Below, one piece after another: positions 46,932 through 63,557 of a stretch of 64,000 bases of DNA; positions within the stretch are counted from its first letter, which is position 1; every line of letters begins with the position of its first letter. Source of the DNA: Streptomyces antibioticus (GTDB lineage: Bacteria > Actinomycetota > Actinomycetes > Streptomycetales > Streptomycetaceae). The position numbers and the translations under genes were made by a program. Under the pieces are notes generated by a model. It ran no database searches and had not been told where the DNA came from. It saw only the letters and a list, made by a program, of their open reading frames with translations. The DNA is taken from contig NZ_KQ948429.1 in assembly GCF_001514065.1 (NCBI RefSeq), forward strand, positions 248,001 to 312,000, written 5' to 3'.

Positions 46932-46948
46932 CGGCTCTACGGGAGCCG
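46932..46948. terminator. Small hairpin between convergent genes
   Basis: CGGCTC (46932-46937) pairs with GAGCCG (46943-46948) around a 5-nt loop. It is just after the aldehyde dehydrogenase stop and overlaps the last codons of the BBE gene. Confidence 0.4.
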
Positions 46949-48547
46949 TATCGACTGGGCGTGACGGAAGAAGTCCGTGGGGTCCCAGCGGGCCTTGACC
47001 TGCTGGAGACGGGCGTAGTTCGCCCGCCAGTACAGGGTGTGCCAGGGCACGCCCGAGGTGTTCCAGACGGGGTCCGAGAGGTCGGGGTCGGGGTCGTTGA
47101 TGTAGCAGCCGCCGGTCAGGTCGTTCGGGACGGGGACGCCGCCCGTGTCCTGGAACGAATCCCGATACAGGTCCCGGAGCCAGGCGAGGTGCTTGTCGTC
47201 CTCGCGCTTGTCGATCCAGAAGTTCTCGTACAGGGCGATCAGGGCCGCGTCCCGGTGCGGGACGGCGGTGGCGCCGGGGGCGGTGTCGTTCGTGCGGCCG
47301 CCGCCGCCGTTGAGGGAGATCACGGCGTTCGGGTTCGTGTAGTCCGTGCGGGTCAAGTGACGGTACATGACGGCCAGTTGGGCGTCGGTGAAACTCCCCT
47401 TCAGCCACGCCGTCTTCACCGCGCTGCGCAGCGTGTGGTCGTACAGCAGGACCGGGCTGCTGGTGCCGAGCAGCTTCGTCGAGGCCAGCCACGGGACGCG
47501 GCGGGACGGGAAGGAGGCGGCGAGGCCGGTGCCGGCGGTGAGGGCCGCGGTGTAGTCGGCGAGCAGCCGGTCGGCGTCCGGATCCGTGCCGTCGACCTGG
47601 GTGAACAGGGCCACGCCGCCCGTCGCCCCCTGGCGCATCAGCAGATAGCCGGAGAGGGAGATGAACGGGGAGGAGGTGGCGCCGTTGTCCACGTGCCAGG
47701 CGCAGAAGTTGCGGACCAGGCGGGCCATCGACGGGGCGTCAAGGCGGCTCCACGGGATCTCCGCCAGGCTGACCAGCACCTCGCGCGGCGGCGCGGGCAG
47801 CTGGAGGCCCGGTGCGGTTCCGGTCGCGGTGGGGGAGCGGAACCAGTAGCGGGTGATGACGCCGAAGCTCCCGCCGCCCCCACCCGAGGTGGCCCACCAC
47901 AGGTCGCGGTGCGGGTCCGAGGGCGCGCGCGAGGCGACGACCGTACGCACCCGCCCCGTGGCGTCGACCACCACCATCTCCACGGCCTCGATGTGATCCG
48001 CCACCAGCCCGAACCGCCGCGTCAGCGGCCCGAACCCGCCGCCGCTCGCATGACCGCCGATCCCCACGGTCAGGCATGCGCCGCCCGGGATCGTCACCCC
48101 CCACCCCTTGTACAACGCCTCGTAGATCTGCCCCAGTTGGGCTCCGGCGCCGATGGCGAAGGCGTTGCGGGCGGGGTCGTGGGCGATCCCGTTCAGCGCG
48201 GACGTGTCGATGATGACGTCGGTGTCGGGGTGGTGGACGAAGTCGGCGTAGCAGTGGCCGCCGCTGCGCACGGACACGCGCTTCCCGGTGCGGACGGCCT
48301 CCGTCACCGCCTGCACCACCTGTTCCGTGGAGGCGACGAGGCGGATGGCTTCGGGCGTGGCCGCCCACCGCTTGTTCACGCCGGTGGCGAGCTCCGCGTA
48401 CCGCGCGTCACCGGGGACGACGGACACGGAGGGTGCTGCGGTGGCCGCGCTCGCGTCCGTCGGGGTGAGGACGCCCTCGGTGACGGCCAGGGCGGACACC
48501 CCGGTCATCAGGGCCCGTCTGCTGATCTCGCTGCTGGGTCTGGGCAT
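46937..48547 (-). CDS. BBE-type FAD oxidoreductase, Tat-exported, probably bicovalent FAD
   Basis: 536 aa. A twin-arginine signal (SRRALMTGVSALAVTEG) precedes an FAD_binding_4 domain. RSGGHCY supplies the His for covalent FAD, and PGGACLTVGIGGHASGGGFG supplies the Cys typical of bicovalent BBE/GOOX enzymes. The C-terminus NYARLQQVKARWDPTDFF is the BBE domain. It oxidises an alcohol, sugar or ring with O2. It lies downstream of the AfsA operon but behind a strong terminator, so it is probably transcribed alone; AGGAG lies about 12 nt before the ATG. Confidence 0.9.
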   Translation of the reverse strand: MPRPSSEISRRALMTGVSALAVTEGVLTPTDASAATAAPSVSVVPGDARYAELATGVNKRWAATPEAIRLVASTEQVVQAVTEAVRTGKRVSVRSGGHCYADFVHHPDTDVIIDTSALNGIAHDPARNAFAIGAGAQLGQIYEALYKGWGVTIPGGACLTVGIGGHASGGGFGPLTRRFGLVADHIEAVEMVVVDATGRVRTVVASRAPSDPHRDLWWATSGGGGGSFGVITRYWFRSPTATGTAPGLQLPAPPREVLVSLAEIPWSRLDAPSMARLVRNFCAWHVDNGATSSPFISLSGYLLMRQGATGGVALFTQVDGTDPDADRLLADYTAALTAGTGLAASFPSRRVPWLASTKLLGTSSPVLLYDHTLRSAVKTAWLKGSFTDAQLAVMYRHLTRTDYTNPNAVISLNGGGGRTNDTAPGATAVPHRDAALIALYENFWIDKREDDKHLAWLRDLYRDSFQDTGGVPVPNDLTGGCYINDPDPDLSDPVWNTSGVPWHTLYWRANYARLQQVKARWDPTDFFRHAQSIRLP

Positions 48548-48583
48548 GGCTGGGTCGGTCTCCTCGCAGGGTGGGAAGGCAGG

Positions 48584-48627
48584 CCGGGGCCCGGGCGGTC
48601 GGGGGACGTTGACCGCCCGGGCCCCGG
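48584..48627 (-). terminator. Strong terminator ending the AfsA operon
   Basis: A perfect 17-bp stem (48584-48600 with 48611-48627) and a 10-nt loop, 3 nt after the stop of the epimerase-type gene. It separates the PTE-to-epimerase operon from the BBE gene. Confidence 0.9.
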
Positions 48628-48630
48628 GGC

Positions 48631-49668
48631 TCAGTGGACGGCGTCGTGGTGGGTGCGGTACCAGTCGGCCTGGTCTCGTAGCGTGCGTTCCAACGGGCGG
48701 AACTCCACGCCGAGTTCGCGTTCGGCGCGGGCGGAGGTCACCCGGCGGCGGTCTCCTTCCAGCAGGGCCCGCACGCCCTCCCGGGTCGCGGTCGGCGTGG
48801 CGCCCCGCAGCCGGCCGCCGGTCTCCAGCAGGGCGGCCATGAGCAGCGCCAGCCGGGCCGGCACCTCGCGCGGGGGCGTGACCCCGAGGGCCCGCGCCGC
48901 GATCCGGCAGACCTCGGGGAGCGGGACCCAGTCGCCGGCCACGATGTAGCGGCGGGCGTGCTCGCCCTTGGCGGCGGCCCGGAGGCAGGCGTCCGCCACG
49001 TCACGGGCGTCCACCACGTGGTTGCCCGCCCGGGGGACACCGCCGAGCCGCCCCTCGGCCACCGAGGCGAACAGCCGCCCGGCGGAGGTCGGCCCGGCGT
49101 CGCCCGGCCCCCACATCCAGCCGGGGAGCACGATCGGCACCCGCACCCCGCGCTCGGCGCCGAAGGCACGGACCGCCTCCTCCGAGCGCAGCTTGCTCGC
49201 GTAGTAGCCGTTGGCGCGGGTGCCGCGCCCCTCCGGGGTGTCCTCGTCCGAGGGGCGGCCGTCGGGGCGGGTGCCGAGCGTGCCGATGGAGCTGGTGTGC
49301 ACCACGACCGGCACCCCGGCCGCGGTCGCCGCGTCGAGCAGTCCGGTGACGGCGTCGACGTTCGTGGCCGTCAGCAGCGCCGGGTCGTGCCCTCCCGGGG
49401 CGTAGTACTCACGGAAGTACGCGGCCGTGTGGATCACCGCCGTGTGCCCCGGGAGGGACGGGGCGAGGGCGCCCGGATCGCGTACGTCCCCCTGGAGGAC
49501 GGTGAGTTGATCGTGCCCGGGGAGCAGGGCGCGGGCCCGCCCCGGGTCCCGGACCACGGCCGTCACCGCGCTGCCGCCGTCGAGCAGCTGCCGTACGACA
49601 TGGCCCCCGAGCAGACCGGTGGCACCGGTGACGAGCACCCGCTGCAACGGCGGGCCGGTCACGTCCAT
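48631..49668 (-). CDS. NAD-dependent epimerase/dehydratase-type reductase (extended SDR)
   Basis: 345 aa; its start overlaps the AfsA-like stop by 10 nt. It has VLVTGATGLLGGHVVRQLL, the TSSIGTLG Ser strand and YYASKLRSE (YxxxK), so catalytic residues are present. It resembles dihydroflavonol reductase-like NADP enzymes. Coupled to the AfsA homologue, it could reduce the butenolide or keto group of the product, but this is inference. It is the last gene of the operon. Confidence 0.88.
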   Translation of the reverse strand: MDVTGPPLQRVLVTGATGLLGGHVVRQLLDGGSAVTAVVRDPGRARALLPGHDQLTVLQGDVRDPGALAPSLPGHTAVIHTAAYFREYYAPGGHDPALLTATNVDAVTGLLDAATAAGVPVVVHTSSIGTLGTRPDGRPSDEDTPEGRGTRANGYYASKLRSEEAVRAFGAERGVRVPIVLPGWMWGPGDAGPTSAGRLFASVAEGRLGGVPRAGNHVVDARDVADACLRAAAKGEHARRYIVAGDWVPLPEVCRIAARALGVTPPREVPARLALLMAALLETGGRLRGATPTATREGVRALLEGDRRRVTSARAERELGVEFRPLERTLRDQADWYRTHHDAVH

Positions 49669-50690
49669 TGCACCACTTCCAGCCGGATCGTCGTCGTCAC
49701 CGCCCCTTCCTGCCGGACCTCGATCACCACGGGCACGGCGAGCGTGCGCAGGTCGTCCTGGCGGCGGAACCCCTGCACGGTGGCCCGCAGTTCGGTCACC
49801 TGGTCCAGCTCCGCGTAGTCGGTGAACTCGGTCTCGATGGCGGAGATGGTCAGCGTCTGCGGGGACAGGCCGTGCAGCTGGGCCACGGCGGCGATCGCGA
49901 GCTGGCGGGCCGCCTCCATCTGGAGATGGCCGGGGACGTGGTCAAGCGGGTGGTCGAACATGTGCGGGTGGCTGGCGTCGAGGACCAGCTGAGCCGACAC
50001 CCGGGCCTCGCTCGCCACCACCGGAGCGGTGATCACGACGTTGCGGGCCTCGCTGCGGCCCACGGCGGACGGCGCCGCCGGGGTGAAGCGCGGCAGGGCC
50101 AGGTCCGTCGCCGCCGTACGGCGTTTCGCCCGCAGGGTGCGGTAGGCGCGCTGGGACACGATCAGCAGGGCCCCGTTGCCGGACATCGCCACATGACCGT
50201 CCAGGGCGACATTGCCGCTGAAGGTGAACCCCTGGACGCGGCCGGCCTTGTTGCGCCGGGGGTGGACGGTCATCGTGACGAGGACGTGCGCGGGCGTCGC
50301 CCCGATCCGCAGCTGGGTCAGGCCCACCGTACGGAGGTTGAGGCTGCGGAAGATGAACGCGGAGCCCAGTTCGACGTCCAGGTGCTCGTGGGCCACCAGG
50401 ACGCCTGCCTGCCGGACCACCTCGATGAGCAGCGTGTAGTCGTACATCGGCGCGTTCTCGCCGATGAGATGGCCGCGGGGCAGCTGGGCGGCGACGAGGA
50501 AGGTCTCCTCGCCGACCGCCGCGGAGTCGGTGACGAACACCTCGGCGACGGAGGTGCGGTGCACCAGCGTGCGGGAGACGGTCGCGTCGTAGCGCAGCCG
50601 GGCGGCGGCCTCGGCGGCGGGGTCCGACGGGGAGCCGGGTTGCTTGTCCTCTGTCTCGAGATCGGTTGGCTGGGTCTCGGGCATGGTCAT
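49659..50690 (-). CDS. AfsA/ScbA-family gamma-butyrolactone synthase homologue
   Basis: 343 aa from ATG 50690. Two hotdog-like halves: RTLVHRTSVAEVFVTD with LLIEVVRQAG (Glu90, Arg93) in the first, and MFDHPLDHVPGHLQMEAARQ (about 244-263; Glu259, Arg262) in the second. Both repeats keep the Glu-x-x-Arg pair and the DHVPG block that defines the AfsA family. AfsA joins a beta-ketoacyl chain to dihydroxyacetone phosphate, giving a butenolide phosphate. A HAD phosphatase and reductases are in the same operon. It may make a signal or a product scaffold; no receptor gene is near. Confidence 0.93.
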   Translation of the reverse strand: MTMPETQPTDLETEDKQPGSPSDPAAEAAARLRYDATVSRTLVHRTSVAEVFVTDSAAVGEETFLVAAQLPRGHLIGENAPMYDYTLLIEVVRQAGVLVAHEHLDVELGSAFIFRSLNLRTVGLTQLRIGATPAHVLVTMTVHPRRNKAGRVQGFTFSGNVALDGHVAMSGNGALLIVSQRAYRTLRAKRRTAATDLALPRFTPAAPSAVGRSEARNVVITAPVVASEARVSAQLVLDASHPHMFDHPLDHVPGHLQMEAARQLAIAAVAQLHGLSPQTLTISAIETEFTDYAELDQVTELRATVQGFRRQDDLRTLAVPVVIEVRQEGAVTTTIRLEVVQWT

Positions 50691-50738
50691 GATCGGCTGG
50701 AGGTCCTTTCCGACCTGGAGTGGGTGTCGGTCCACGGT

Positions 50739-52376
50739 TCAGGCCGCCTCGGCGGCGCCGGCCCGCTGCGAGGGCAGCCGGTCGAGCAGTTCGAGGACGC
50801 CCGGGATGCCGGCCCGGGCCCCGACCGTTCCGTCGGGGCGTACATAGGCGAGCCAGGGCGTGCCGTCCTCCTTGCCGAACCCGGGGCCGGACACGCGTGC
50901 GGTGTCGCAGCGGGCATCGGCGGCGCCGCCGGCGCGCCCGGCCCCGGAGCTGTCGCCCGCAGGCCTGACCCAGAGCACGTCCGTGATGTCGTCCACACCG
51001 CGCCCCCGCAGCGCGGCCACGGCCCGGACGGCCATGTCACCGGCGGCCTGGTCCCCGTACGCGAGAACCGTGTGCCGTCCGGCCGTCAGGTACTGGTGGA
51101 GCGAGTCGGCCTTCGTGCCGTTCAGCGGGATCAGCGCGGTGTCCGGGACGCGGCGCCCCAGCTTCACGCCGCGGGGCACGGCCGCGGCGCCCGGCAGGTC
51201 GGCGACGGCGGGGCTCGCCGAGTGGTCGAGGTCGAGCTGGGCGAGCTGCGGCAGCATCTGCTTCTCCAGCAGGCCCCGCCGGGAGAAGGACTGCATGGTG
51301 GCGTCCCGCATGGCCCGGGCCATGGGGTTGCGCAGCAGCCACATCCGGGTCTGCTGGTCGGCGTTGCGCACCGCCTGCACGGAGGCCGGGCGGCGCTCCG
51401 GCTCATAGCTGTCGAGCAGCTCGACAGCGGCGCCGCGCAGCACGGAGGCGAGCTTCCAGCCGAGGTCGTAGCCGTCCTGGACCCCGGTGTTGAGGCCCTG
51501 GCCGCCCGCGGGGCTGTGCGCGTGGGCGGCGTCCCCGGCGATGAAGACCGGGCCCGCGCGGAACGCGGGGGCGACCTTGGCGTGCACCTGGAACCGGTTG
51601 GACCACCAGGTCTCGCGCAGCCGCAGCCCGCCGGGACCGCGCTCGTCCAGCAGGGCTTGCAGCTGCTCGTCGGACGGCGGCCGGGTGTTCCCGTCGGCCG
51701 CGATGTCGAAGAAGACCCGGTGCCCGCCGTCCGGCAGCGGGACGAGGACCAGCACGCCCTCCGGCGTGATGTGGTACTGCGCCTCGTCCTCGGGCGCGGG
51801 CCCCTCCAGCCTGCCGTCGCCCAGCAGGAACACCCGGTCGTAGGTGTGCCCCTCGAAGGGGATGGCGACGGCGTCCCGGACCCGGCTGTGGGTGCCGTCC
51901 GCGCCGATCACATAGCGGTACGTCCCGCGCTCCACCCGGCCCTGCACGGTCCGCAGCGCCACCGTGACCTTGTCGCCGGCGACGGTGAGCCCCACGGCCT
52001 CCGTCTCCCACTCGACCTCGCCGCCCAGCGCGTGCAGCCGCTCGTACAGGGCGGCCTCGGTGACGGGCTGCGGGGCGCACAGCGGGTTGCGGAAGGCGGT
52101 GCCGTCGAGGCCGCCGAACCGCATGCCGCCGACCTGCTTCTTCCGTGACCAGTAGGTGGCGCCGGCCAGCGGCAGTGCCGCCTCGACGATGGGCCCGGCG
52201 GCGCCGACGCGGCTCAGGCACTCCAGCGCGCCGCTCCACAGCACCAGCGCCTTGGGCGCCCCGCCGGGTCCGTCGCGCCGGTCGACGATCCGGCACGGCA
52301 CGCCGAGCCCCAGCAGGGTGCAGGCGGCGGTCAGACCGGTGGGGCCCGCGCCGACGATCAGGATGTCCTCGGTCAT
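50739..52376 (-). CDS. FAD-dependent aromatic-ring-type monooxygenase (group A)
   Basis: 545 aa from ATG 52376, overlapping the HAD stop by 4 nt. GxGxxG in IVGAGPTGLTAACTLLG, the DG motif VIGADGTHSRVRDAV, and the GD motif FIAGDAAHAHSPAGGQGLNTGVQD. A C-terminal thioredoxin-like domain of about 150 residues is typical of phenol/polyketide hydroxylases. It uses NAD(P)H and O2 to hydroxylate or epoxidise the scaffold. Lies between the HAD and AfsA genes. Confidence 0.92.
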   Translation of the reverse strand: MTEDILIVGAGPTGLTAACTLLGLGVPCRIVDRRDGPGGAPKALVLWSGALECLSRVGAAGPIVEAALPLAGATYWSRKKQVGGMRFGGLDGTAFRNPLCAPQPVTEAALYERLHALGGEVEWETEAVGLTVAGDKVTVALRTVQGRVERGTYRYVIGADGTHSRVRDAVAIPFEGHTYDRVFLLGDGRLEGPAPEDEAQYHITPEGVLVLVPLPDGGHRVFFDIAADGNTRPPSDEQLQALLDERGPGGLRLRETWWSNRFQVHAKVAPAFRAGPVFIAGDAAHAHSPAGGQGLNTGVQDGYDLGWKLASVLRGAAVELLDSYEPERRPASVQAVRNADQQTRMWLLRNPMARAMRDATMQSFSRRGLLEKQMLPQLAQLDLDHSASPAVADLPGAAAVPRGVKLGRRVPDTALIPLNGTKADSLHQYLTAGRHTVLAYGDQAAGDMAVRAVAALRGRGVDDITDVLWVRPAGDSSGAGRAGGAADARCDTARVSGPGFGKEDGTPWLAYVRPDGTVGARAGIPGVLELLDRLPSQRAGAAEAA

Positions 52377-53035
52377 GGTGAAGTCCCTTCGGAGTCCGGT
52401 GCGTTGCCTTCCAGGTGGGTGAGCACCTCGCGTACGGCGGTGTCCGTGTCGGTGAACAGCACGGAAGGGATGCCGAGTTCGCGGGCGGCGGCGCAGTTCT
52501 CCTCGGTGTCGTCGACGAACAGGCACTGGTGCGGTGCGACGTCGAGCCGCTCCAGCAGAATCCGGTAGATCTTGGGGTCCGGCTTGCGCACGCCCTCCTT
52601 GTGCGAGTCGACGACGACCTCGAAGAGCTCGTCGACGGGGAGCTGGGCGCGCCAGCGCGGCTCCCACTCGCGGACGTTGTTGGTGAGCAGGGCGAGCCGT
52701 CGGCCGCTCGCGCGCAGTTCGCGCAGGAAGTCGACGAAGGGCTGGTTGGGGCGGCGGCCGCGGAACCACAGCTCCCCGAACTCGTGGTCGTCCAGGATCT
52801 TCTCGGACCCGGGCGGCAGTTCGGCGAGGATGCGCTCGGCCATCTGGCGTTCGCTGATCGCGCCGATCTCCAGGGCGGCCATGGGGGTCTCGCCGTGCTT
52901 CTCGGTGGCGGCGAGGAACGCCTCGGCGAGGGCGGTGGTGTCGAGACCGGCCAGGGCGGCGAACTCGCAGAAGGTCTCGGCCAGCGGGTTGGTGAGCACG
53001 CCGCCGTAGTCGACGACGACCACGTCGGTGCTCAT
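52373..53035 (-). CDS. HAD-family hydrolase (probable phosphatase)
   Basis: 220 aa from ATG 53035. Motif I is VVDYGGVLTNP (nucleophile Asp; the +2 residue is Gly and not Asp), motif II LLTNN, motif III Lys in VRKPDPKIY, motif IV FVDDTEEN. The DYGGVLT form is common in HAD-IA proteins near the epoxide-hydrolase N-domain type, and loss of the second Asp can shift activity away from simple phosphatase. By analogy to MmfP in furan signal pathways it could remove phosphate from an AfsA product. ATGA overlaps on both sides. Confidence 0.88.
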   Translation of the reverse strand: MSTDVVVVDYGGVLTNPLAETFCEFAALAGLDTTALAEAFLAATEKHGETPMAALEIGAISERQMAERILAELPPGSEKILDDHEFGELWFRGRRPNQPFVDFLRELRASGRRLALLTNNVREWEPRWRAQLPVDELFEVVVDSHKEGVRKPDPKIYRILLERLDVAPHQCLFVDDTEENCAAARELGIPSVLFTDTDTAVREVLTHLEGNAPDSEGTSP

Positions 53036-53391
53036 GACGCCTCCGGCTGCGCCGGGCTCGCCGGGCCGCTCTCCCACTGGAGCCCGACCATGATCAGTTC
53101 GGTGTCGCCGATGTTGTGCATCTGGTGGCACAGGGGTTCGTCCGCCGGGTTGAACAGGACGACGCCGTCCGGGAGTTCACCTTCGCGCAGGACTTCGCCC
53201 TCGGGGCCGAGGGAGCGGACCTTGGCGCCGCTGAGCACCACGGTCGCCCAGGGCTTGCGGTGGGTGTGCAGGGGGCGGGTACCGCCCGGCGGGACCTGCT
53301 CGACCCAGGCCTTCACCCAGGGGGTGTCCAGGCACAGGGGTGCGCCGAGCTCTTCCCAGGGGCCTTGCGCGGTGACGGGACTGTGGGTCAC
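53032..53391 (-). CDS. Cupin-domain protein
   Basis: 119 aa. Two cupin motifs: GGTRPLHTHRKPWATVVLSG with two His, and GVVLFNPADEPLCHQMHNIG with His. It could be a small metal-dependent isomerase, cyclase or oxygenase, or only a binding protein. It sits between the phosphotriesterase-like and HAD genes and is translationally coupled to the HAD gene (ATGA overlap). Confidence 0.85.
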   Translation of the reverse strand: MTHSPVTAQGPWEELGAPLCLDTPWVKAWVEQVPPGGTRPLHTHRKPWATVVLSGAKVRSLGPEGEVLREGELPDGVVLFNPADEPLCHQMHNIGDTELIMVGLQWESGPASPAQPEAS

Positions 53392-53416: not shown

Positions 53417-54412
53417 TCAGTAGGGGGCGTTGGCGGCGAAGAAGCGGCGCGGATTGTCGACGAGCATGGTGCGCAGGTCCTCGTCGCTCACCTCGGCCTT
53501 GCGCAGCGCGGGCAGGACGTCGTCGTGGATGTGTGTGTAGTCCCAGGAGGGGGCGACGAGTTCGCGCTGGTCGGTGGTGAGGTAGTCCAGGAAGCAGGGG
53601 CAGTCGTGGGACAGGACGAGCTGCGAGGCGTACCCCAGGCGGACCAGTCGCGCCACGGTCTCCACGCGCTGCTCCAGCGGGGCGATGAACTCCATGCCGA
53701 AGCGGTCCATGCCGAGGAACGAGCCGGCGTCGAGCAGTTCGCGCAGATAGCCGAGGTCGTCGCTGTCGCCGGAGTGCCCGATGACGACCCGGCTGAGGTC
53801 GACGCCCTCCTCGCGGAACACCTTCTGCTGCAACAGGCCGTTGCGGACCAGGGCGTTGCTGTGGGTCTGGATCGGCGCACCGGTCTCGCGGTGGGCCTGG
53901 GCGGTGGCGCGCAGGACACGCTCCACGCCCTCCGGTAACTGCTCGGTCTCGGTGGCGCACTTGAGGACGGCCGCCTTGACGCCGGTGTCGCCGATGCCCT
54001 CGGTGATGTCGCGCACGAACAGCTCGACCATCGGGTCCGGGCCCTCGAAGACCCGGCCGGGGCCGCGGAAGGCGAAGTACATGGGCTCGTCGTTGTAGGT
54101 GTAGACGCCGGTCGCCACGACGATGTTGAGCGCCACGCGCTCGGCCACCTTCTTGATACGGGGCAGGTAGCGGCCCTGGCCGAGGACGGTGAGGTCGACG
54201 ATGGTGTCGACCCCGCGCTCGGCGGCCGCGTTCAGCTTCGCGACGGCGCTGTCGATCTGGTCCTGCTCATTCCAGAGCTGAGGATTGTTCTCCTGTATTT
54301 CGGTACTGAGGACAAAGACGTGTTCATGCATCAATGTGACGCCGAGCCGGTCCAGCGGAATGCCGCCTTTAACGGTCTCGACTATGACGGGTTCTATGGA
54401 ATTTGCTGCCAT
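53417..54412 (-). CDS. Phosphotriesterase-family metallohydrolase (lactonase-like)
   Basis: 331 aa. The complete binuclear metal set is present: HxH at 29-31 (MHEHV), carboxylated Lys candidate K151 (VLKCATE), His184 (QTHSNA), His213 (IGHSGDSDD) and Asp270 (LSHDCPC). GHSGDSDDL is typical of phosphotriesterase-like lactonases, many of which open quorum-sensing lactones. As first gene of the AfsA operon, it could hydrolyse or form a lactone ring of the pathway. GGGGAGG lies 5 nt before the ATG. Confidence 0.93.
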   Translation of the reverse strand: MAANSIEPVIVETVKGGIPLDRLGVTLMHEHVFVLSTEIQENNPQLWNEQDQIDSAVAKLNAAAERGVDTIVDLTVLGQGRYLPRIKKVAERVALNIVVATGVYTYNDEPMYFAFRGPGRVFEGPDPMVELFVRDITEGIGDTGVKAAVLKCATETEQLPEGVERVLRATAQAHRETGAPIQTHSNALVRNGLLQQKVFREEGVDLSRVVIGHSGDSDDLGYLRELLDAGSFLGMDRFGMEFIAPLEQRVETVARLVRLGYASQLVLSHDCPCFLDYLTTDQRELVAPSWDYTHIHDDVLPALRKAEVSDEDLRTMLVDNPRRFFAANAPY

Positions 54413-54514: not shown

Positions 54515-54525
54515 CTAGTGGTTTC
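54515..54525 (+). promoter_or_regulatory. Shared element CTAGTGGTTTC, site A
   Basis: The 11-mer CTAGTGGTTTC, within the palindrome CACTAGTG, lies in the divergent PTE/SDR gap and recurs exactly (on the minus strand) at 56386-56396. It is a candidate site for the nearby MmyB-type XRE regulator. Confidence 0.5.
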
Positions 54526-54623
54526 AGTAATCTTGTCCGGCGGCCGTGGGAGGGGGAGTGTGAGGCTCGGAGAAAACCGATTGTGCGAATGCGTACGAGG
54601 ATTCGGCCGTGAAGGAGCAGGAC

Positions 54624-55490
54624 GTGACCAGCACCGAACGGGTCGCTCTGGTGACCGGCAGCACGAGCGGTCTCGGGGAGGCGACCGCACGACTCCTGGC
54701 GGAGGAGGGCTGGCACGTGGTGGTGCACGGCCGTGATCCGCGCAAGGTGGCCAAGGCCCTCGCCGGGGTGCGCTCGGCGGGCCGGGGCCCGGGGAGCTCC
54801 CTCGTCGCCGATCTGTCGCGGCGCGACGGGGTGCACGCGCTGGCCGACGAGGTGCTGGCCGAGCACGGCCGGCTGGACGCCCTGATCAACAACGCGGGCG
54901 TGGCCACGCCCAACCGCAGCGCCCGCACCCGCCGGGTCACGGCGGACGGGCTGCAACTGGAGTGGCAGGTCAACTTCCTCGCGCCGTTCGCCCTGACCCT
55001 GCGCCTGTCGGGCCTGCTCGCCCGCTCCGCGCCCGCCCTGGTCGTCAACGTCAGCTCCGTCGCCCAGGGGTGGGGGCAACTGCGCTGGGACGATCTCCAG
55101 ATGGCGGGGCGCTGGGACCGTATGGCCGCGTACGCGCAGTCCAAGCTGGCGCTGACCGCGTTCACCAACGAGTACGCGCAGCGGCTGCGGGCCGACGGGG
55201 TGCGGGCCAACAGTCTCCATCCGGGGATGTGCGCCACGAAGATGGTGCGCAGTACGTTCGTGCTGGCCCCGCATCGGACGGGGTACGGCGCCCGGAACAT
55301 CGTCCGCCTGGTCACCGATCCGCGGCTGGAGAACGCGAGCGGCGTCTACTTCCACGAGCGGCGGCGCATCGAACCGAACCCGTTCGCGCAGGACGCGGCC
55401 GCCCGGCGGCGGTTGTGGGAGGTGGCCCTCGACCAGTCGGGCGTCATCGGCCGGCCGGACGAGGTCCCCGCGGGACTGCTGACCGCGTGA
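54624..55490 (+). CDS. Short-chain dehydrogenase (retinol-dehydrogenase-like)
   Basis: 288 aa from GTG 54624, 6 nt after AAGGAG; GTG 54609 would add five residues. Motifs VTGSTSGLGEATA, NNAGVA and MAAYAQSKLALTAF (YxxxK present), with LHPGMCATKMVR after it. It is divergent from the PTE-AfsA operon and probably reduces a ketone in the same pathway, for example the keto group of a butenolide-type intermediate. Confidence 0.88.
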   Translation: MTSTERVALVTGSTSGLGEATARLLAEEGWHVVVHGRDPRKVAKALAGVRSAGRGPGSSLVADLSRRDGVHALADEVLAEHGRLDALINNAGVATPNRSARTRRVTADGLQLEWQVNFLAPFALTLRLSGLLARSAPALVVNVSSVAQGWGQLRWDDLQMAGRWDRMAAYAQSKLALTAFTNEYAQRLRADGVRANSLHPGMCATKMVRSTFVLAPHRTGYGARNIVRLVTDPRLENASGVYFHERRRIEPNPFAQDAAARRRLWEVALDQSGVIGRPDEVPAGLLTA

Positions 55491-55501
55491 AGACCGGAAG
55501 G

Positions 55502-56353
55502 TCAGCCGACGAGCGTGCTCAGCCGTCGTGCCGTCTCCGAGCCCGGGGTGGCGAAGTGGGAGACGATGCTGAGCCCGCGGCCGCCCTCCACCGAGAGTTT
55601 CACGTAGTTGAGCTCCAGCTCTCCCACGACCGGGTGCCGGAAGCGGCGGACGGAGGGGGCGAAGGCCTGGACGTCGTGCGAGGTCCACCACTCGCTGAAC
55701 AGCTCGCTGGACTTCCGCAGGCTGTTGACCACCTCGATGAAGCGCGGACTGCCCAGTTCGTGCGCCGACTCGGTCCGCAGCAGCCCCACCAGCCAGCGCG
55801 CCTCGCGCTCCCAGTCGGGCAGCAGATCGCGGGCCTCGGGGGCGTTGAACATGAGCCACAGCGCGTTGCGTTCGTGGACCGGCAGATGATCGAACCCGCC
55901 CATGAGCGCCGCCTCCGCCCGGTTCCACGCGACCACGTCGAAGCACCGGGTGATCACATAGGCGGGGTTCGGGTCGAGCAGGTCGAGGAAGGTCTGCATC
56001 TCGGGTCCGGCGACCTGCTCGTCGCCGGCGGCCGCGGTGTCCGGGGGCACCTCGCCGGCGAGCCGGAAGAGATGGCTGCGCTCCACGGCGTCCAGCGTGA
56101 GGGCCCGCGCGATCCCGCCGAGGACCTGCCGCGAGACGTTGATGTCCCGCCCCTGCTCCAGCCACGTGTACCAGGTGAGGCTCACGCCCGAGAGCTGGGC
56201 GACCTCCTCCCTGCGCAGCCCCTGAATCCGGCGGCGACTCACCTCGTGTCCGGAATTAATCAGTCCACTCTTTTTCGGATCCGCTTTCCTGCGCCGGGAC
56301 CTCAGGAAGTCCCCGAGTTCCTTCCGGCTCTGTTCGTCCTTCAAATTTCCCAT
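55502..56353 (-). CDS. XRE-family regulator with MmyB-like ligand-binding domain
   Basis: 283 aa. N-terminal helix-turn-helix (about 40-75: LRREEVAQLSGVSLTWYTWLEQGR) and the C-terminal MmyB-type domain (about 110-270: YVITRCFDVVAWNRAEAALMG, RDLLPDWEREARWLVGLLR). MmyB of the methylenomycin cluster is an activator of this family; the C-domain may bind a fatty acid-like ligand. It is the only transcription regulator within the AfsA cluster, so it is the likely pathway-specific activator. The CTAGTGGTTTC element lies 33 nt upstream of its start. Confidence 0.9.
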   Translation of the reverse strand: MGNLKDEQSRKELGDFLRSRRRKADPKKSGLINSGHEVSRRRIQGLRREEVAQLSGVSLTWYTWLEQGRDINVSRQVLGGIARALTLDAVERSHLFRLAGEVPPDTAAAGDEQVAGPEMQTFLDLLDPNPAYVITRCFDVVAWNRAEAALMGGFDHLPVHERNALWLMFNAPEARDLLPDWEREARWLVGLLRTESAHELGSPRFIEVVNSLRKSSELFSEWWTSHDVQAFAPSVRRFRHPVVGELELNYVKLSVEGGRGLSIVSHFATPGSETARRLSTLVG

Positions 56354-56385: not shown

Positions 56386-56396
56386 GAAACCACTAG
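56386..56396 (-). promoter_or_regulatory. Shared element CTAGTGGTTTC, site B
   Basis: An exact minus-strand copy of site A in the divergent XRE/P450 gap, within CACTGCTAGTGGTTTCCGCA. Its location suits autoregulation of the XRE gene and control of the P450 operon. Confidence 0.5.
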
Positions 56397-57716: not shown

Positions 57717-58931
57717 ATGGCCTCGTCCGTACGCCCCGACTCACCCCGGCGGCACGCCGCCGCCCCCGTCCCCCGCACCCCGGTCCGGCTGCTCGCCCTC
57801 GCCAGTGGCCTCACCGTCGGCAACCTCTACCTCGCCCTGCCGCTCCTGGACACCATCGCCGCCGACCTCGACCGCTCGCATCTCGCCGCGAGCCTGCTGG
57901 TGGTGGCGACGCAGGCCGCGTACGCCCTCGGCCTGGTCCTCGTCGTCCCGCTCGGCGACCTCCTCGACCGGCGCCGGCTCATCCTCACCCTCCTCACCGC
58001 GGAGACGGCCGCGCTGCTGCTCGCCGCCACCGCACCGGGCATCGGCGTCCTCTACGCGGCGGCCGCCCTGATCGGCCTCGCCTCGGTCGCGGTGATGGTG
58101 ATGGTGCCGTTCGCCGCGTCCCTGGCCCCCGAGGACCAGCGCGGCCGGGTGGTCGCCGCCGTGATGAGCGGGGTCCTCGTCGGCTCGCTCCTGATCCGCT
58201 TCCTGTCCGGCGTCGTCGGCGACCGCACCGGCTGGCGGCCCGTGTACTACGGCGCCGCGACCTGCGCCGGCCTCCTGGTGCTGGTCCTGCGCGGCCGGCT
58301 GCCCCGGGCCGGCGCCGCTCCGCCCCTGGTGACCGGCCTCGGCTACGGGGCGCTGCTGCGCTCCCTGCCCGGCCTGGTCGCCGCCCACCGCACCCTGCGC
58401 CGCCGCACCCTGTACGGCGCCCTGTGCTTCGCCGCGTTCACCGCCTTCTGGACCCCGCTGCCGTTCCTGCTCGCCGGACCCGACTACGGGTACGGCGCCG
58501 GCGCAGTGGGGCTGCTCAGCCTCGTCGGCGTCGGCGGGGTCGTCGCCGCGGGGCTGGCCGGCCGGGCCACCGACCGCGGCCGCGGCACGCCCCTCACCGG
58601 CATTCTGCTCGCCGGGGTGTGCCTGTCCTTTCTCCCGGCCGCCCTCGGGAAAACGTCCCTGGCATTTCTCGTCCTTGCCACATTCACCCTCGACTTCGCG
58701 GTCCAGGGCGCGCACATCGCCAATCAGGGGGCGATCTACCAGGTTCCCCCGGAAATTCGTGGCCGAGTCACGTCGGTCTACATGACCGGATATTTCCTGG
58801 GCGGCGCCGTGGGCGCCTCGGGAGCCGCTCTCACGTATTCCGCTTCCGGGTGGACCGCGGTGTGCGTACTGGGTGTCGCACTGTCCGGTGCGGCCGCCCT
58901 GACCTGGCTCTTTCATCTGGTCAGGCACTGA
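57717..58931 (+). CDS. MFS exporter
   Basis: 404 aa from ATG 57717, 18 nt after the P450 stop, without a good ribosome site. About twelve hydrophobic helices, with LGDLLDRRRLILTLL as motif A and RGRVTSVYMTGYFLGGAVG in the second half. It resembles small-drug/arabinose-efflux-type carriers. Probably exports the cluster product. Confidence 0.88.
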   Translation: MASSVRPDSPRRHAAAPVPRTPVRLLALASGLTVGNLYLALPLLDTIAADLDRSHLAASLLVVATQAAYALGLVLVVPLGDLLDRRRLILTLLTAETAALLLAATAPGIGVLYAAAALIGLASVAVMVMVPFAASLAPEDQRGRVVAAVMSGVLVGSLLIRFLSGVVGDRTGWRPVYYGAATCAGLLVLVLRGRLPRAGAAPPLVTGLGYGALLRSLPGLVAAHRTLRRRTLYGALCFAAFTAFWTPLPFLLAGPDYGYGAGAVGLLSLVGVGGVVAAGLAGRATDRGRGTPLTGILLAGVCLSFLPAALGKTSLAFLVLATFTLDFAVQGAHIANQGAIYQVPPEIRGRVTSVYMTGYFLGGAVGASGAALTYSASGWTAVCVLGVALSGAAALTWLFHLVRH

Positions 58932-58968: not shown

Positions 58969-59068
58969 ACCATTGTGCCCGCACGTTCTCGCTCATACGC
59001 TGAAAAGCCGGGGCCCATGTGCTGAAAAGCCGGGAATTCGGCTTCTTCCGAGACGACTGGAGTAGCAA

Positions 59069-60055
59069 ATGGATGTGCCGCGTCGCGAACTCGCGAAGGG
59101 CCTCGAAGTGTCCGCGCTCGGGCTCGGCTGCATGGGAATGGCCGAATTCTACGGAGACCGGAACGACCCGGAATCCGTCGCTACGATCCACCGCGCCGTG
59201 GAACTCGGCGTCGACTTCATCGACACCGCCGACATGTACGGCGACGGAGTGTCCGAGCAGATCGTGGGCAAGGCGCTGCGCACCGGCGGACTGCGGGACA
59301 AGGTCGTGCTGGCCACCAAGGGCGGCATGATCCGCACCGCGACCGGCGTGGAGCTCGACGGCTCACCGGCCCACCTCCACAAGGCGATCGACGCGAGCCT
59401 GGCCCGCCTCGGCACGGACCACGTCGACCTCTACTACCTGCACCGCATCGACCCGCGCGTGCCGGTCGAGGAGTCGGTGGGCGCGCTGTCGGAGATCGTG
59501 CGGGCCGGCAAGGCGCGCTTCATCGGCCTCTCGGAGGCCGGCGCCGAGACCGTCCGCCGCGCCCACGCGGTCCACCCCGTCTCCGTCCTCCAGACCGAGT
59601 ACTCACTGGCCAGCCGTGGCGTCGAGGACAAGATCCTGCCCACCTGCCGGGAACTCGGCATCGGCTTCGTCTCCTGGGGCCCGCTCAGCCGGGGGCTGCT
59701 CGGCGGCCAGATACTCACCGACGAGGACCTGGCCACCGACGACCTGCGCCGCTTCCTGCCGCGCTTCGAACCGGACAACCTCGCGGTCAACGGCGCGATC
59801 GTCGCCCGGCTCGGCGAGATCGCCCTGGACAAGGGGTGCAGCACCGCGCAGCTGGCCCTGGCCTGGCTGCTCGCCCAGGGCGTCGTCCCCATCCCCGGCA
59901 GCCAGACCCGCCGCGACTTCGAGGAGAACACCGCGGCCCTGCACGTCGACCTCACCCCGGCCGACCTCGCCCGCATCGAGACGGTCGCTCCGCCCGGCGC
60001 GTTCGCGGGGGAGCGGTTCCCGGCCGGCCTGATGCACCTGGTGGAGGACGAGTGA
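59069..60055 (+). CDS. Aldo/keto reductase
   Basis: 328 aa, GGAG 7 nt before ATG 59069. Tetrad positions are visible: Asp and Tyr in [16 protein letters not shown], Lys in LATKGGM, His in LYYLHRIDP. The NADPH-binding end reads [16 protein letters not shown]. It is an AKR of the YajO/AKR13-like type. It would reduce an aldehyde or ketone of the product. Confidence 0.92.
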
Positions 60056-60095
60056 ACGACCCCACCCCCACCCCCTCACGAACCCGGAGGCACCC

Positions 60096-60989
60096 ATGAG
60101 CCCCACCTCGTCCGCCCCTGTCGCCCTCGTCACCGGCGCGGCCGGTGGTCTCGGCAGCGCGACGATCAAGAAGCTCTCGAACGCCGGCTGGCAGGTGATC
60201 GCCGCCGTACGCACCCCCGAGGCGCTCAGCGCACTGCCCCTCGGTCTCGCCGCGGTCACCCCCGTCGTCCTCGACGTCACCGACCCCGACTCGATCCACG
60301 CGGCCGCGGCCACCGTGGCCCCCGTCCTCGCCGACCACGGCCTCGACGCGCTGGTCAACAACGCCGGCGTCATCGTGCAGGGCCCCGTGGAACTCGTACC
60401 GCCGCACGCGCTGCGCCGCCAGTTCGAGATCAACGTGCTCGGCCAGATCGCCGTCACCCAGGCGTTCCTGCCCGCACTGCGCCGGGCGGGCGGCCGGGTG
60501 GTCAACGTCGGCGCGGTGACCGCGCGGACCGCCGTGCCGTTCTTCGGCCCGGTCGCCGCGTCGAAGGCGGCCCTCGCCTCCCTCAACGACACCCTCCGCC
60601 TGGAGCTGAAGTTCCTCGGCGTGGACGTCGTCCTCGTCGAACCCGGCGCGCTGGAGACGGAGATCTTCCACAAGGCGGACAAGGCCGCCGCCGACGACGG
60701 CTGGGCCGGCGAGACCGAGGCCCGCCAGCGCTATGTGAAGGCCCTCGGCGACGCCCAGGCGGCCGCCGCGAAGCAGAAGGCCACGCCGGTGGAGAAGGCG
60801 GCCGGGACCCTGACGAAGGCGATCACCACCCGCCGCCCGGCCACCCGCTACCTCATCGGCCAGGACGCCCGCGCCCTGTCCTTCCTGCGCATCCTGCCCG
60901 ACCGCTTCCGCGACGGACTGCTGCTGCGCACCCTCGGCCTGAGCCGCGCCAGCTACCCGAAGCCCGCGGAGTCCGCCCACGCCCACTGA
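60096..60989 (+). CDS. SDR-fold protein lacking the catalytic Ser and Tyr
   Basis: 297 aa. The cofactor motif VTGAAGGLGSATIKK and NNAGV are intact. But the strand that normally holds the catalytic Ser reads VNVGAVTART, and the YxxxK site reads GPVAASKAA with Val in place of Tyr while Lys is kept. Related enzymes read GPYAASK here. It probably cannot do the usual proton relay, so it may be a binding or partner protein, or use another chemistry. It follows the AKR gene by 40 nt. Confidence 0.86.
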   Translation: MSPTSSAPVALVTGAAGGLGSATIKKLSNAGWQVIAAVRTPEALSALPLGLAAVTPVVLDVTDPDSIHAAAATVAPVLADHGLDALVNNAGVIVQGPVELVPPHALRRQFEINVLGQIAVTQAFLPALRRAGGRVVNVGAVTARTAVPFFGPVAASKAALASLNDTLRLELKFLGVDVVLVEPGALETEIFHKADKAAADDGWAGETEARQRYVKALGDAQAAAAKQKATPVEKAAGTLTKAITTRRPATRYLIGQDARALSFLRILPDRFRDGLLLRTLGLSRASYPKPAESAHAH

Positions 60990-61068
60990 CCGACCCCGCC
61001 CCATCGGCGTGGGCGAGCGACACCGCTGCCCCCACCGCACCGCGTCACCACCGGAGGGACCCACCACC

Positions 61069-63321
61069 ATGTTCGAGCGTCTGGCCAGGCTGACCACGGC
61101 GCGGCCACGTCTCATCCTGTTCCTGGCGCTGCTCTTCGCCGCGGGCGCCGTCGTCCTCGGCGGCGGGGTGGCCGACCGGCTCCAGGGCGGCGGCACCACC
61201 GACCCCGCCGCCGAGTCCTCGCAGGCCGCCCGTCTCCTCGACCGGGAGTTCGCCGCGGGCCGCCCCAACCTGGCGCTGCTCGTGAAGGCGGACGCCGGCG
61301 TCGACGACCCGGCGGTGACCGCCGAGGCCAAACGGCTGACCGAACGGCTCGCCGCCGAGCACGACGTCCAGGGCGTCACCTCGTACTGGCAGGCCAAGTC
61401 CCCGGCACTGCGCAGCGAGAACGGCCGCTACGGCCTCGTCGTCGCCCGCGTCACCGGCACCGAGACCGAGGCCGACGACACCCTCAAGGCCCTCGCCCCG
61501 CACTACCGCGGCAGCCACGGCCCGGTCGACGTCTCCATCGGCGGCGCCGCCCAGATCCGCGCCGAGGTGCAGGACACCAGCCGCGAGGACCTGGCCCGCG
61601 CCGAGGTCATCGCGCTGCCGCTGACCCTGCTCATCCTGGTCCTGGTCTTCCGCAGCGCCGTCGCCGCCCTGCTGCCCGTGATCATCGGCCTGATCGCCAT
61701 CGTGGGCACCAACGCGAGCCTGCGCGTGATCACCGGCTTCACCGACGTGTCCGTCTTCGCGCTCAACCTGACCACCGCGCTGGGCCTCGGACTCGCCGTG
61801 GACTACGGCCTGTTCATCGTCCGCCGCTACCGCGAGGAACTGCACGGCGGCGCCCCGCCCGCGACCGCCGTACGCACCACGCTCGGCACCGCCGGCCGCA
61901 CGGTCGCCTTCTCCGCGCTCACCGTCGCCGTGGCGCTCTCGGCGATGCTCCTGTTCCCCATGTACTACCTGCGCTCCTTCGCCTACGCCGGCATCTCGGT
62001 GGTCCTCATCGCCGCCGCGGCGGCGCTCGTCGTCCTGCCCGCCCTGCTGCTGGTCCTGGGCAAGCGGATCGACGCGCTCGACCTGACCCGGATCTTCCGC
62101 CGCCGCTCGGCCGAGGCCACCGCACCGGACGCCTCGGGCCGCCGCTGGCGGCGGATCGGCGAGGCCGTGGTGAAACGCCCGGTCGTCTTCGCCGTCACCG
62201 CGGTCGCGTTCCTCGTCGCGCTCGGCGCCCCCTTCCTCGGCGTGACCTTCGGCAACATCGACGACCGCCAACTGCCCAAGGACGCCGAGGCGCACCAGGT
62301 CCACCAGGTGATCCGCGACGGCTTCACGTCCCGCCCGACCGGCGAACTCGACGTGGTCGCGCAGGGGGTGGACGGCAAGAGCCGCGCCACGGACATCGCC
62401 TCGTACGCGACGACGCTGTCCCGCCTCGACGGGGTCGTACGGGTCAACTCCTCGGCCGGCACGTACGCCGAGGGCCGCCTGGTGCAGCAGCCGGGCCCGG
62501 CGAACGCCCGCTACACCACGACCGGCGCCTCCTACCTGGCCGTCGAGCCGTCCCTGGAGGACGTCTCCCCGGAGAGCCAGGACCTGGTCCGCGCGATCCG
62601 TGACGTACCGTCCCCGTTCCCCGTCCTGGTGGGCGGCGGCGCGGCCGAACTCGTCGACACCCAGGACACGTTGGCCGACCGGCTGCCGTACGCGCTGCTC
62701 GCGATGGTCGGCGTCACGATGGTCCTGCTGTTCCTGATGACGGGCAGCGTGGTGGTCCCCCTGAAGGCGGTGGTCCTCAACGTCCTCAGCCTGTCCGCCA
62801 CGTTCGGCGCCCTGGTCTGGGTCTTCCAGGACGGCCATCTCAGCGGCCTGCTCGGCGACTTCACGGTCACCGGGTTCATCCCGGCCACCCTGCCCGTGCT
62901 GATGTTCTGCGTCGCCTTCGGACTCTCCATGGACTACGAGGTGTTCGTGCTGTCCCGCATCAAGGAGGAGTACGACCGCACCGGCGACACCACCCGCGCC
63001 ATCGTCTTCGGCCTCCAGCGCAGCGGCGGCGTCGTCACCGCGGCCGCCGCCGTCCTGTCGGTCGTCCTGGTGGCCATCGGCACCTCGCAGATCACCAACA
63101 TGAAGATGCTCGGCCTGGGCCTTGCGCTGGCCGTCCTGATGGACGCGATCGTGGTCCGCGGTGTCCTGGTGCCGTCCGTGATGCAGCTGCTGGGCCGCGC
63201 CAACTGGTGGGCGCCCGGCCCGCTGCGGCGCCTGCACGGCCGCTTCGGCATCAGCGAGGGCGGCCCGTCCGGGACCGTGGTGCCCGTACCGGCCCCGACC
63301 AAGGCGGGAGAGCGGGTATGA
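61069..63321 (+). CDS. MMPL/RND-family exporter
   Basis: 750 aa from ATG 61069 (GGAGGG upstream); the in-frame upstream ATG at 61009 is rejected. Two symmetric halves, each with one helix, an extracytoplasmic domain and five more helices; LGLGLAVDYGLFIVRRYREEL and FGLSMDYEVFVLSRIKEEYDRTGDT are the family's paired DY-containing helices. Exports lipids or antibiotics using the proton gradient. It is the second exporter of the cluster and is coupled to the ferredoxin gene (ATGA). Confidence 0.93.
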   Translation: MFERLARLTTARPRLILFLALLFAAGAVVLGGGVADRLQGGGTTDPAAESSQAARLLDREFAAGRPNLALLVKADAGVDDPAVTAEAKRLTERLAAEHDVQGVTSYWQAKSPALRSENGRYGLVVARVTGTETEADDTLKALAPHYRGSHGPVDVSIGGAAQIRAEVQDTSREDLARAEVIALPLTLLILVLVFRSAVAALLPVIIGLIAIVGTNASLRVITGFTDVSVFALNLTTALGLGLAVDYGLFIVRRYREELHGGAPPATAVRTTLGTAGRTVAFSALTVAVALSAMLLFPMYYLRSFAYAGISVVLIAAAAALVVLPALLLVLGKRIDALDLTRIFRRRSAEATAPDASGRRWRRIGEAVVKRPVVFAVTAVAFLVALGAPFLGVTFGNIDDRQLPKDAEAHQVHQVIRDGFTSRPTGELDVVAQGVDGKSRATDIASYATTLSRLDGVVRVNSSAGTYAEGRLVQQPGPANARYTTTGASYLAVEPSLEDVSPESQDLVRAIRDVPSPFPVLVGGGAAELVDTQDTLADRLPYALLAMVGVTMVLLFLMTGSVVVPLKAVVLNVLSLSATFGALVWVFQDGHLSGLLGDFTVTGFIPATLPVLMFCVAFGLSMDYEVFVLSRIKEEYDRTGDTTRAIVFGLQRSGGVVTAAAAVLSVVLVAIGTSQITNMKMLGLGLALAVLMDAIVVRGVLVPSVMQLLGRANWWAPGPLRRLHGRFGISEGGPSGTVVPVPAPTKAGERV

Positions 63322-63557
63322 CTACGGAACGGACGGAGCACTGGACCATCGAGATCGACTCCGCGGTCTGCGTCGGCTCGGGCCTGTGCGCGGGCAGTGC
63401 CGCGAGGGCCTTCACCCTCGGCACCGCCGGCCGCGCGACAGCACCGGAATCCCCCGTCCCGGCCGACTCCGACCTGCTCGAAGCCGCCGAGAACTGCCCC
63501 GCGGCGGCCATCACGCTCCGCACGGCGGAGGAGGGCAAGGAGATCTTCGCGCCCTGA
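63318..63557 (+). CDS. 3Fe-4S ferredoxin (P450 partner)
   Basis: 79 aa from ATG 63318, overlapping the MMPL stop. The cluster motif is CVGSGLC then CP in ENCPAAAI, three Cys, which gives a 3Fe-4S centre as in Streptomyces P450 ferredoxins. The partner P450 is 5.6 kb upstream in the same direction. The last 47 nt overlap the antisense TnpB-like reading frame. Confidence 0.92.
   Translation: MTTERTEHWTIEIDSAVCVGSGLCAGSAARAFTLGTAGRATAPESPVPADSDLLEAAENCPAAAITLRTAEEGKEIFAP

Follow-up and report, generated by a model that had tools for sequence, protein, structure and literature searches.

Background

Genes of the AfsA family are usually read as hormone genes, paired with the gene for a TetR receptor. 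The cluster described here, from Streptomyces antibioticus, is centred on an AfsA gene that has no such partner nearby. It spans positions 46937-63557 of a 64,000-nucleotide stretch (hereafter the window, with positions counted from its first letter; C8:248001-312000 of a 10.1 Mb draft genome) and comprises 15 genes, identified through Pfam and NCBIfam profile searches, which probably build, oxidise and export a small fatty lactone or furan. Judging from gene content and conservation, we think it rather likely that the cluster makes an oxidised metabolite for export, with a phosphorylated butenolide as its precursor.

The closest described systems share parts of this gene set. In vitro, the AfsA-like domain of the gladiostatin pathway converts dihydroxyacetone phosphate and a beta-ketothioester into a phosphorylated butenolide, and the Streptomyces ansochromogenes butenolides (SAB) require an AfsA homologue, a phosphatase and a ketoreductase (PMC7756379). 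By enzyme class, the window resembles SAB (sabA-sabP-sabD) and the Streptomyces rochei butenolide system (SRB; srrX-srrP-srrG-srrO) in its AfsA homologue, phosphatase, NAD-dependent reductase and, for SRB, cytochrome P450 (PMC7564063, PMC7756379); around srrX lie NAD-dehydrogenase, phosphatase, P450 and thioesterase genes (PMC7564063). Unlike in the window, the repressor genes srrA and srrB adjoin the SRB genes (PMC7564063), and the excerpts of both reports name no flavin monooxygenase (FMO), phosphotriesterase (PTE), cupin, berberine-bridge-type oxidase (BBE) or MMPL transporter alongside (PMC7564063, PMC7756379), all of which the window has. The methylenomycin furan (MMF) and 2-alkyl-4-hydroxymethylfuran-3-carboxylic acid (AHFCA) systems (mmfL-mmfH-mmfP; ahfaLHP) are alike by description, combining an AfsA homologue, a flavin enzyme and a phosphatase with a possible furan end point, and the mmy system, like the window, has an MmyB-type regulator. 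The ahfa cluster differs in carrying two TetR regulators that resemble MmfR and MmyR, and its AhfaH has 384 aa as against 545 aa for the window's FMO (PMC7037778). No ScbR-type gene over the cut-off lies beside the window's genes, in a search whose queries were of ScbR type and not MmfR.

The A-factor and Streptomyces coelicolor butanolide (SCB) AfsA-ArpA systems share the AfsA enzyme, and S. griseus also has an MmyB-type gene near afsA (PMC3406030). Two further likenesses come from genomes compared in this study. The locus on plasmid pFiD188 of Rhodococcus fascians D188 (L100) brings together AfsA, a HAD phosphatase (44% identical), FMO (43%), an aldo-keto reductase (AKR), MMPL and MFS transporters, as the window does; its AfsA is just 32% identical, on a long branch outside the clade of the window's enzyme (the core clade, below), and no PTE, cupin, BBE or MmyB gene is annotated there. 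At positions 7383-16962 of that locus, AfsA-HAD-MFS-FMO-AKR plus MMPL and TetR genes adjoin argininosuccinate synthase/lyase and asparagine synthase annotations; the locus may perhaps be that of the stk genes. Core-clade operons of Streptomyces, Nocardiopsis and Streptomonospora share AfsA-HAD-FMO-MMPL and the missing receptor with the window, and in one group also an epimerase-type short-chain dehydrogenase/reductase (SDR). They differ in that MmyB, PTE, cupin, BBE and P450 give way to mostly SARP regulators and, in 17 of 35 loci, an alpha/beta hydrolase.

An earlier note, made from the letters of this DNA, had known of no described cluster with this gene set, and narrow term searches of 5.39 million open-access papers, a collection without subscription papers and MIBiG, likewise returned no paper describing it. 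The set is apparently new as a combination of receptorless AfsA-type butenolide biosynthesis with a recurrent tailoring module, although the kind of pathway is already known.

Recurrence of the gene set around two AfsA lineages

An AfsA profile scan of 84,980 species genomes, run with a two-peptide prefilter, confirmed 257 relatives, and the best 80 of the 257 loci were kept. Loci were sampled by similarity to the window's AfsA, and all proportions given below describe that sample. Four of the best 80 are window-like, namely those of Streptomyces sp. GKU 895 (L020) and S. justiciae (L021), both near copies, S. albiflavescens (L022) and S. triticirhizae (L023, identical to L149). The earlier note had proposed a gene-set search across genomes; in the loci compared here, all 15 cluster genes recur in S. 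albiflavescens (L022 and L148, 56-89% identity) and 14 of 15 in S. triticirhizae (42-78% identity), in which the ferredoxin gene has no match, BBE is inverted, and the regulator-P450-MFS-AKR-SDR-MMPL block sits on the other side of BBE. The cluster is not unique: other Streptomyces have copies of it, and its own genome has a parallel cluster.

In a tree of 90 AfsA proteins (L017 and L018 were left out as coming from the same genomes as L045 and L051, and L052 as partial), the window's AfsA belongs to a core clade that comprises 35 rows and has 100/97 support; a canonical clade, with 36 rows, stands separate from it. L100, L142, L144 and others sit on long branches, so their positions are unsure. 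The parallel cluster (L137, G000:C1:993000-1012999) carries the genome's second cupin copy beside a distant AfsA. Its genes are BBE, MFS, SDR, PTE, cupin, SDR, AKR, FMO, AfsA and HAD, followed by dedicated fatty-acid-synthesis genes, namely ketoacyl synthase III (KASIII), acyl carrier protein (ACP), KASII and two SDR-type reductases (FabG- and FabI-like, as read by eye); an MmyB-type gene fragment lies at the locus edge, and no receptor was found in its 20 kb. Identities to the window are 65% for AKR, 47% for PTE, 46% each for BBE and cupin, 41% for the second SDR listed and 40% for FMO, falling to 34% for HAD and 30% for AfsA. Related clusters (L141, L142, L143 and L144) do not all carry every gene: in the locus DNA, L142 is without FMO, L144 without this HAD, and no BBE was seen in either. 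At 8256-10118 of L144, cupin and FMO form an in-frame fusion gene; its neighbours are a PTE 65% identical to that of the window, AKR, AfsA, another HAD and, as read by eye, a KASIII-like gene.

In AfsA, HAD and FMO the window resembles the core clade more than L137, while counterparts of its PTE, cupin, SDR, AKR, BBE and regulator occur in the parallel clusters. Compared by sequence, one predicted tailoring set accompanies two distant AfsA lineages, and because it does so, the PTE, cupin, SDR, AKR, BBE and MmyB genes would be expected to act together on AfsA products; this is our strongest evidence. Cupin searches, in which the best 11 candidates or fewer per genome were scored and misses are possible, point the same way: the family was found at a minimum of eight loci in six of 392 Streptomyces genomes (own genome included), and each of the eight has an AfsA gene no more than about 6 kb away. 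When 394 genomes of the class were searched with a cupin profile, the matches listed came from the own genome only, with two copies.

A purely fortuitous arrangement, in which an AfsA operon happens to lie beside unrelated oxidative genes, finds a foothold in the core-clade loci other than L020-L023, which have AfsA-HAD-FMO-MMPL without PTE, cupin or BBE. It is very improbable in view of the complete set in S. albiflavescens, the rearranged set of 14 in S. triticirhizae, the return of most of the set around a distant AfsA, and the position of every cupin locus found next to an AfsA gene. Recurrence in two other species places the grouping beyond chance.

Absence of a receptor in the AfsA clade

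Receptors were sought with the four ScbR-type receptors of the own genome as queries (E <= 1e-10, at least 120 residues). In the counts for receptor, HAD, FMO and MMPL, L052 is included among 35 core loci and the window, examined separately, is left uncounted. A receptor lies within the locus DNA in 35 of 36 canonical loci, the A-factor/SCB type, but in none of the 35 loci of the window's clade, the 5 parallel-cluster loci, the 2 AfsA-HAD-P450 loci or the 1 pFiD188 locus, and in 2 of 11 others. The single canonical locus without one, L090, has DNA extending just 1.2 kb beyond AfsA. In pFiD188 the adjoining TetR gene matches ScbR types weakly, over just 61 residues (E 5e-8).

The earlier note had described an AfsA cluster without an ArpA/ScbR-type receptor. 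This stands, in that the window has the AfsA-type synthase of a gamma-butyrolactone system without the adjoining receptor: tblastn of the window with the four receptors gave nothing significant (best E 0.049), and no window gene exceeds the cut-off of the ScbR model (150 bits). Of the window's genes the model touches one only, which encodes a TetR protein of the TetR_C_38 family (about 27567-28199, 25.8 bits); a further TetR gene, 2.6 kb beyond the ferredoxin gene and outside the window, reaches 31.1 bits. What does not stand is that the absence is peculiar to this cluster, as it is general in the AfsA clade.

These data bear on whether the locus is a hormone system of the ordinary kind, for a gamma-butyrolactone or butenolide, with its ScbR-type receptor encoded elsewhere in the genome and the remaining genes tailoring the signal. 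The genome does hold four genes over the ScbR cut-off, on contigs C12 (twice), C7 and C5 and none on C8, and the AfsA, phosphatase and reductase are of the same kinds as in the SRB/SAB set. Under this explanation, linkage would have to have been lost generally, given the absence of a receptor from the DNA of all core and parallel loci as against its near-constant presence in canonical ones, and fifteen genes with two transporters are more than a hormone needs; we regard it as unlikely. One of the four receptor genes, at C7:438521-439090, has no AfsA match on its contig and is an orphan receptor, a point in favour of this explanation.

The clade has its own companions. HAD homologues occur in 33 of 35 core loci, 4 of 5 parallel, 2 of 2 AfsA-HAD-P450 and 1 of 1 pFiD188 loci, as against 0 of 36 canonical and 0 of 11 other loci. 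The SRB and AHFA clusters, which have both a phosphatase and a receptor, are exceptions to any rule of phosphatase without receptor (PMC7564063, PMC7037778). FMO occurs in 33 of 35 core and 4 of 5 parallel loci, with matches also in 14 of 36 canonical loci, mostly on the opposite strand; the DNA of L031, a core locus without HAD or FMO, begins at its AfsA. MMPL is found in 30 of 35 core, 0 of 36 canonical and 0 of 5 parallel loci; three of the five core loci where it was missed, L020-L022, end too early on that side to include it, and L148 supplies the gene for L022. SARP regulators stand beside AfsA in 28 of 35 core loci, with none in L020-L023, and a secreted-type alpha/beta hydrolase is present in 17.

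Several neighbouring architectures were observed in passing. In L038 (S. avicenniae), a core-clade AfsA occurs with a large SARP and an alpha/beta hydrolase and without HAD, FMO or MMPL. In L024-L036 (S. scabiei 87.22, L033, and relatives), AfsA-HAD-FMO-MMPL adjoins a response regulator, histidine kinase, ThcOx-type nitroreductase, SARP and thioesterase, with YcaO in 11 of 13 loci and a 105-122 aa protein, a possible peptide precursor, in 9 of 13; this appears to be an azole-peptide cluster coupled to the AfsA module. In L019 and L053 (a Streptomyces and Glycomyces buryatensis), the AfsA-HAD-P450 order resembles srrX-srrP-srrO, and no receptor is present in the locus DNA.

The AfsA enzyme

The AfsA gene (49659-50735, minus strand), presumed to encode a phosphorylated butenolide synthase, has two PF03756 stretches scoring 128 bits (cut-off 24) and matches the NCBIfam ScbA/BarX model. 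Its structure model (predicted local distance difference test, pLDDT, 86.5) is a double hotdog, with fatty-acid-synthase and thioesterase hotdogs as the best Foldseek matches. E105/R108/Q109 and E274/R277/Q278 are invariant across 30 aligned AfsA sequences, the Glu and Arg of each half being those that we take to have a catalytic role in ScbA. Two hotdog domains, a profile score over the cut-off and Glu/Arg in both halves bear out the earlier assignment to the AfsA family.

Gene content and limits of the cluster

Each gene previously listed from the open reading frames was confirmed in its place by Pfam and NCBIfam. On the minus strand with AfsA lies the gene for BBE (46937-48547; Pfam FAD_binding_4 and BBE; kept in L020-L023), which has RSGGH and GGAC motifs, presumably the usual sites of the two flavin bonds. 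Its closest solved chains are TamL, CrmK, AknOx and GilR, and its N-terminus is twin-Arg-like (SRRALMTG, read by eye). It is followed by an extended SDR, an HpnA-like reductase of the NAD-epimerase type (48631-49668; motifs GATGLLG and YYASK), for which one group of AfsA-HAD-FMO-MMPL operons has a homologue of 55-61% identity. Beyond AfsA come a class A FAD monooxygenase, the FMO of 545 aa (50739-52376; FAD_binding_3, 219 bits; motifs GAGPTG, GADG and GDAAH), nearest to polyketide hydroxylases and rifampin monooxygenases, and a HAD phosphatase (52373-53035; motif DYGGVL), for which the closest solved chains are an epoxide-hydrolase phosphatase domain and YihX glucose-1-phosphatase. The small cupin (53032-53391) was recognised from an alignment of its own family, its Pfam score of 22.1 bits lying under the cut-off of 27.2, and has three conserved His (H42, H44 and H89).

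Last in this minus-strand group is a predicted PTE-like lactonase (53417-54412; Pfam PTE, 311 bits), with H29, H31, K151, H184, H213 and D270, which we take to be the metal ligands of the family, all present and invariant in seven sequences. It aligns best to 4if2 (phosphotriesterase homology protein), then to SsoPox, with the full PTE-family metal site. The PTE-like lactonase family hydrolyses lactones (PMC3468530), and the intact ligand positions would also suit a quorum-quenching or catabolic locus that imports foreign butyrolactones and degrades them by means of the lactonase and oxidases. An amidohydrolase and an aldehyde dehydrogenase gene (43758-46924) adjoin BBE and would fit such a role; they are present in L020 and L021 and absent from L022 and L023, and the conserved set includes a synthase and MMPL and MFS transporters, all of which makes a degradative locus improbable.

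Divergent from the PTE gene, on the plus strand, is a classical SDR gene (54609-55490; adh_short, 122 bits; homologues in L020-L023). The minus-strand regulator gene (55502-56353) is next, with a divergent P450 gene (56428-57699, plus strand; motif FSSGIHYCLG; kept in L020-L023). Also on the plus strand follow an MFS transporter, presumed to be an exporter (57717-58931; Pfam; 42-89% identical in L021, L022/L148 and L023/L149), the AKR (59069-60055; Pfam; 77-97% identical in L021-L023), a second classical SDR (60096-60989; Pfam; kept in L148 and L149), an MMPL-type transporter, presumed to export lipid (61069-63321; 264 bits; homologue in L148), and a small ferredoxin (63318-63557; Cys18, Cys24 and Cys60), the likely P450 partner, 68% identical in L148 and without a match in L149. 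The absence of polyketide synthase and non-ribosomal peptide synthetase genes noticed earlier extends to the whole of contig C8, in which profile searches found neither a ketosynthase nor a non-ribosomal condensation domain.

Cluster limits were set at BBE and at MMPL/ferredoxin because the gene set recurs in S. albiflavescens and S. triticirhizae and the neighbouring amidohydrolase and aldehyde dehydrogenase do not; these two were accordingly dropped as cluster parts. They belong to a plus-strand group at 39520-46924 (luciferase-type monooxygenase, SDR, amidohydrolase, aldehyde dehydrogenase) which is convergent with the cluster and looks catabolic and separate. A gene for a 955-aa SARP/NB-ARC/TPR regulator (36359-39223), resembling those adjoining AfsA in L016 and L038-L040, lies 7.7 kb outside the cluster, farther than the L022 DNA beyond BBE (about 7 kb) extends, and was left out.

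The MmyB-type regulator

The regulator belongs to the MmyB/MltR type, having an XRE DNA-binding domain (HTH_31) and an MLTR ligand domain (PF17765, 174.9 bits). Its gene also shows the family's divergent placement from a redox or antibiotic gene, here that of the P450. An MmyB-type gene is present in four of four window-type loci and in four of five parallel-cluster loci, one of these being the fragment mentioned above. In MltR, of the MmyB family, the PAS-like ligand domain was crystallised with a fatty acid, tentatively myristic acid; MMFs are the inducers of MmyB, and A-factor takes no more than 5 min to induce the S. griseus MmyB homologue, whose gene lies one gene away from afsA (PMC3406030). 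The MmyB-type gene reported in the earlier note is indeed there, and the S. griseus case gives precedent for such a gene near afsA (PMC3406030). An MmyB-type regulator that reads an AfsA product would explain the missing receptor.

Both divergent promoter regions contain the 11-mer GAAACCACTAG, at 54515-54525 (minus strand) between the PTE and SDR genes and at 56386-56396 (plus strand) between the regulator and P450 genes, each a weak candidate for an operator half-site. Two matches were found against 0.15 expected, and the element is kept in L020 and L021; as the regulator's operator it is no more than a hint.

Proposed pathway and nature of the product

The earlier note had considered plausible a butenolide, butyrolactone or furan made from fatty acid and C3 phosphate, and AfsA-type enzymes are indeed reported to make a butenolide or furan by joining a beta-ketoacyl thioester to a C3 phosphate (PMC7756379). 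The reactions, product, direction of transport and regulator ligand that we infer are as follows, with the order from AfsA to phosphatase to reductase taken from the gladiostatin and SAB precedents. AfsA would take a beta-ketoacyl thioester supplied by the cell's fatty acid synthesis and condense it with dihydroxyacetone phosphate to a 2-acyl-3-phosphomethyl butenolide, from which the HAD enzyme would remove the phosphate. Keto or enoyl groups may then be reduced by the epimerase-type SDR, AKR and other SDRs, and the ring or side chain oxidised by FMO with the cupin and subsequently by P450 and ferredoxin. The PTE-like lactonase could open or rearrange the lactone, perhaps giving a furan acid; a furan acid end point as in the MMF pathway is possible, because that conversion would need ring opening followed by closure. 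BBE, probably secreted, would finish an alcohol or hemiacetal, and MMPL and MFS would carry out export. The MmyB-type regulator, whose family has a ligand pocket that accommodates a fatty acid, would switch the divergent operons in place of a TetR receptor, perhaps in response to the product.

Several observations weigh against this reading. The AfsA score of 204.1 bits barely clears the ScbA/BarX cut-off of 200, so its substrates may differ from known ones, and the AfsA of L142, in the parallel-cluster group, is without the second-half Glu and Arg. In the HAD motif, Gly replaces the usual second Asp (DxG, not DxD); YihX, we believe, carries the same DxG and is active. The cupin has no clear Glu ligand, weak solved relatives (best E 1.7e-7) and a poor structure model (pLDDT 66). 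The type is also rare: an AfsA this close (E <= 1e-55) occurs in 17 of 392 Streptomyces genomes, and the window type with cupin in at least 3 of 392, own genome counted in each. On the regulatory side, canonical locus L059 also carries an MmyB-type gene, which is hence not confined to these clusters; phmmer found no solved relative of the regulator; the 11-mer GAAACCACTAG has no match within one mismatch in L022 or L023; and a wider operator consensus, written by eye, was rejected after giving 1, 0 and 0 matches against 1.11, 0.47 and 0.32 expected.

Whether the product is a signal or an end metabolite, such as an antibiotic or surface lipid-like compound for which AfsA was recruited as a scaffold-forming enzyme, bears on the role of the pathway. 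The two transporters, P450, FMO, BBE and lactonase speak for an end metabolite, as do the KASIII, ACP, KASII and two reductases that the parallel cluster brings with it, and gladiostatin and methylenomycin use AfsA-like and AvrD-like (MmyD) pathway enzymes (PMC7756379, PMC12593393). The genes are also compatible with a signal, and the SARP genes beside most core loci fit both roles; we give an end metabolite a substantial chance, somewhat short of even. A methylenomycin-type cyclopentanone, suggested by FMO, HAD and the MmyB-type regulator, was set aside for two reasons: MmyD resembles AvrD and is proposed to act on a pentulose (PMC12593393), and both Pfam and NCBIfam assign the window's enzyme to the AfsA type.

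Implications

The clade to which this AfsA belongs breaks the pairing of synthase and receptor, and is tied instead to a phosphatase, a flavin monooxygenase and MMPL, and in part to a lactonase-cupin-oxidase module. As a tentative extension, which we hold to be possible though doubtful, there may be a second kind of AfsA circuit, in which an MmyB-type PAS-like activator senses the AfsA product in place of a TetR receptor, and the recurrent module (MmyB, PTE, cupin, SDR, AKR, BBE), joined to at least two distant AfsA lineages, may yield oxidised metabolites of a new class, derived from butenolides or furans. The clade gives a practical starting point in the search for a new product family derived from butenolides, and it opens the way to asking whether MmyB-type regulators read AfsA products directly, as has been speculated for S. 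griseus (PMC3406030).

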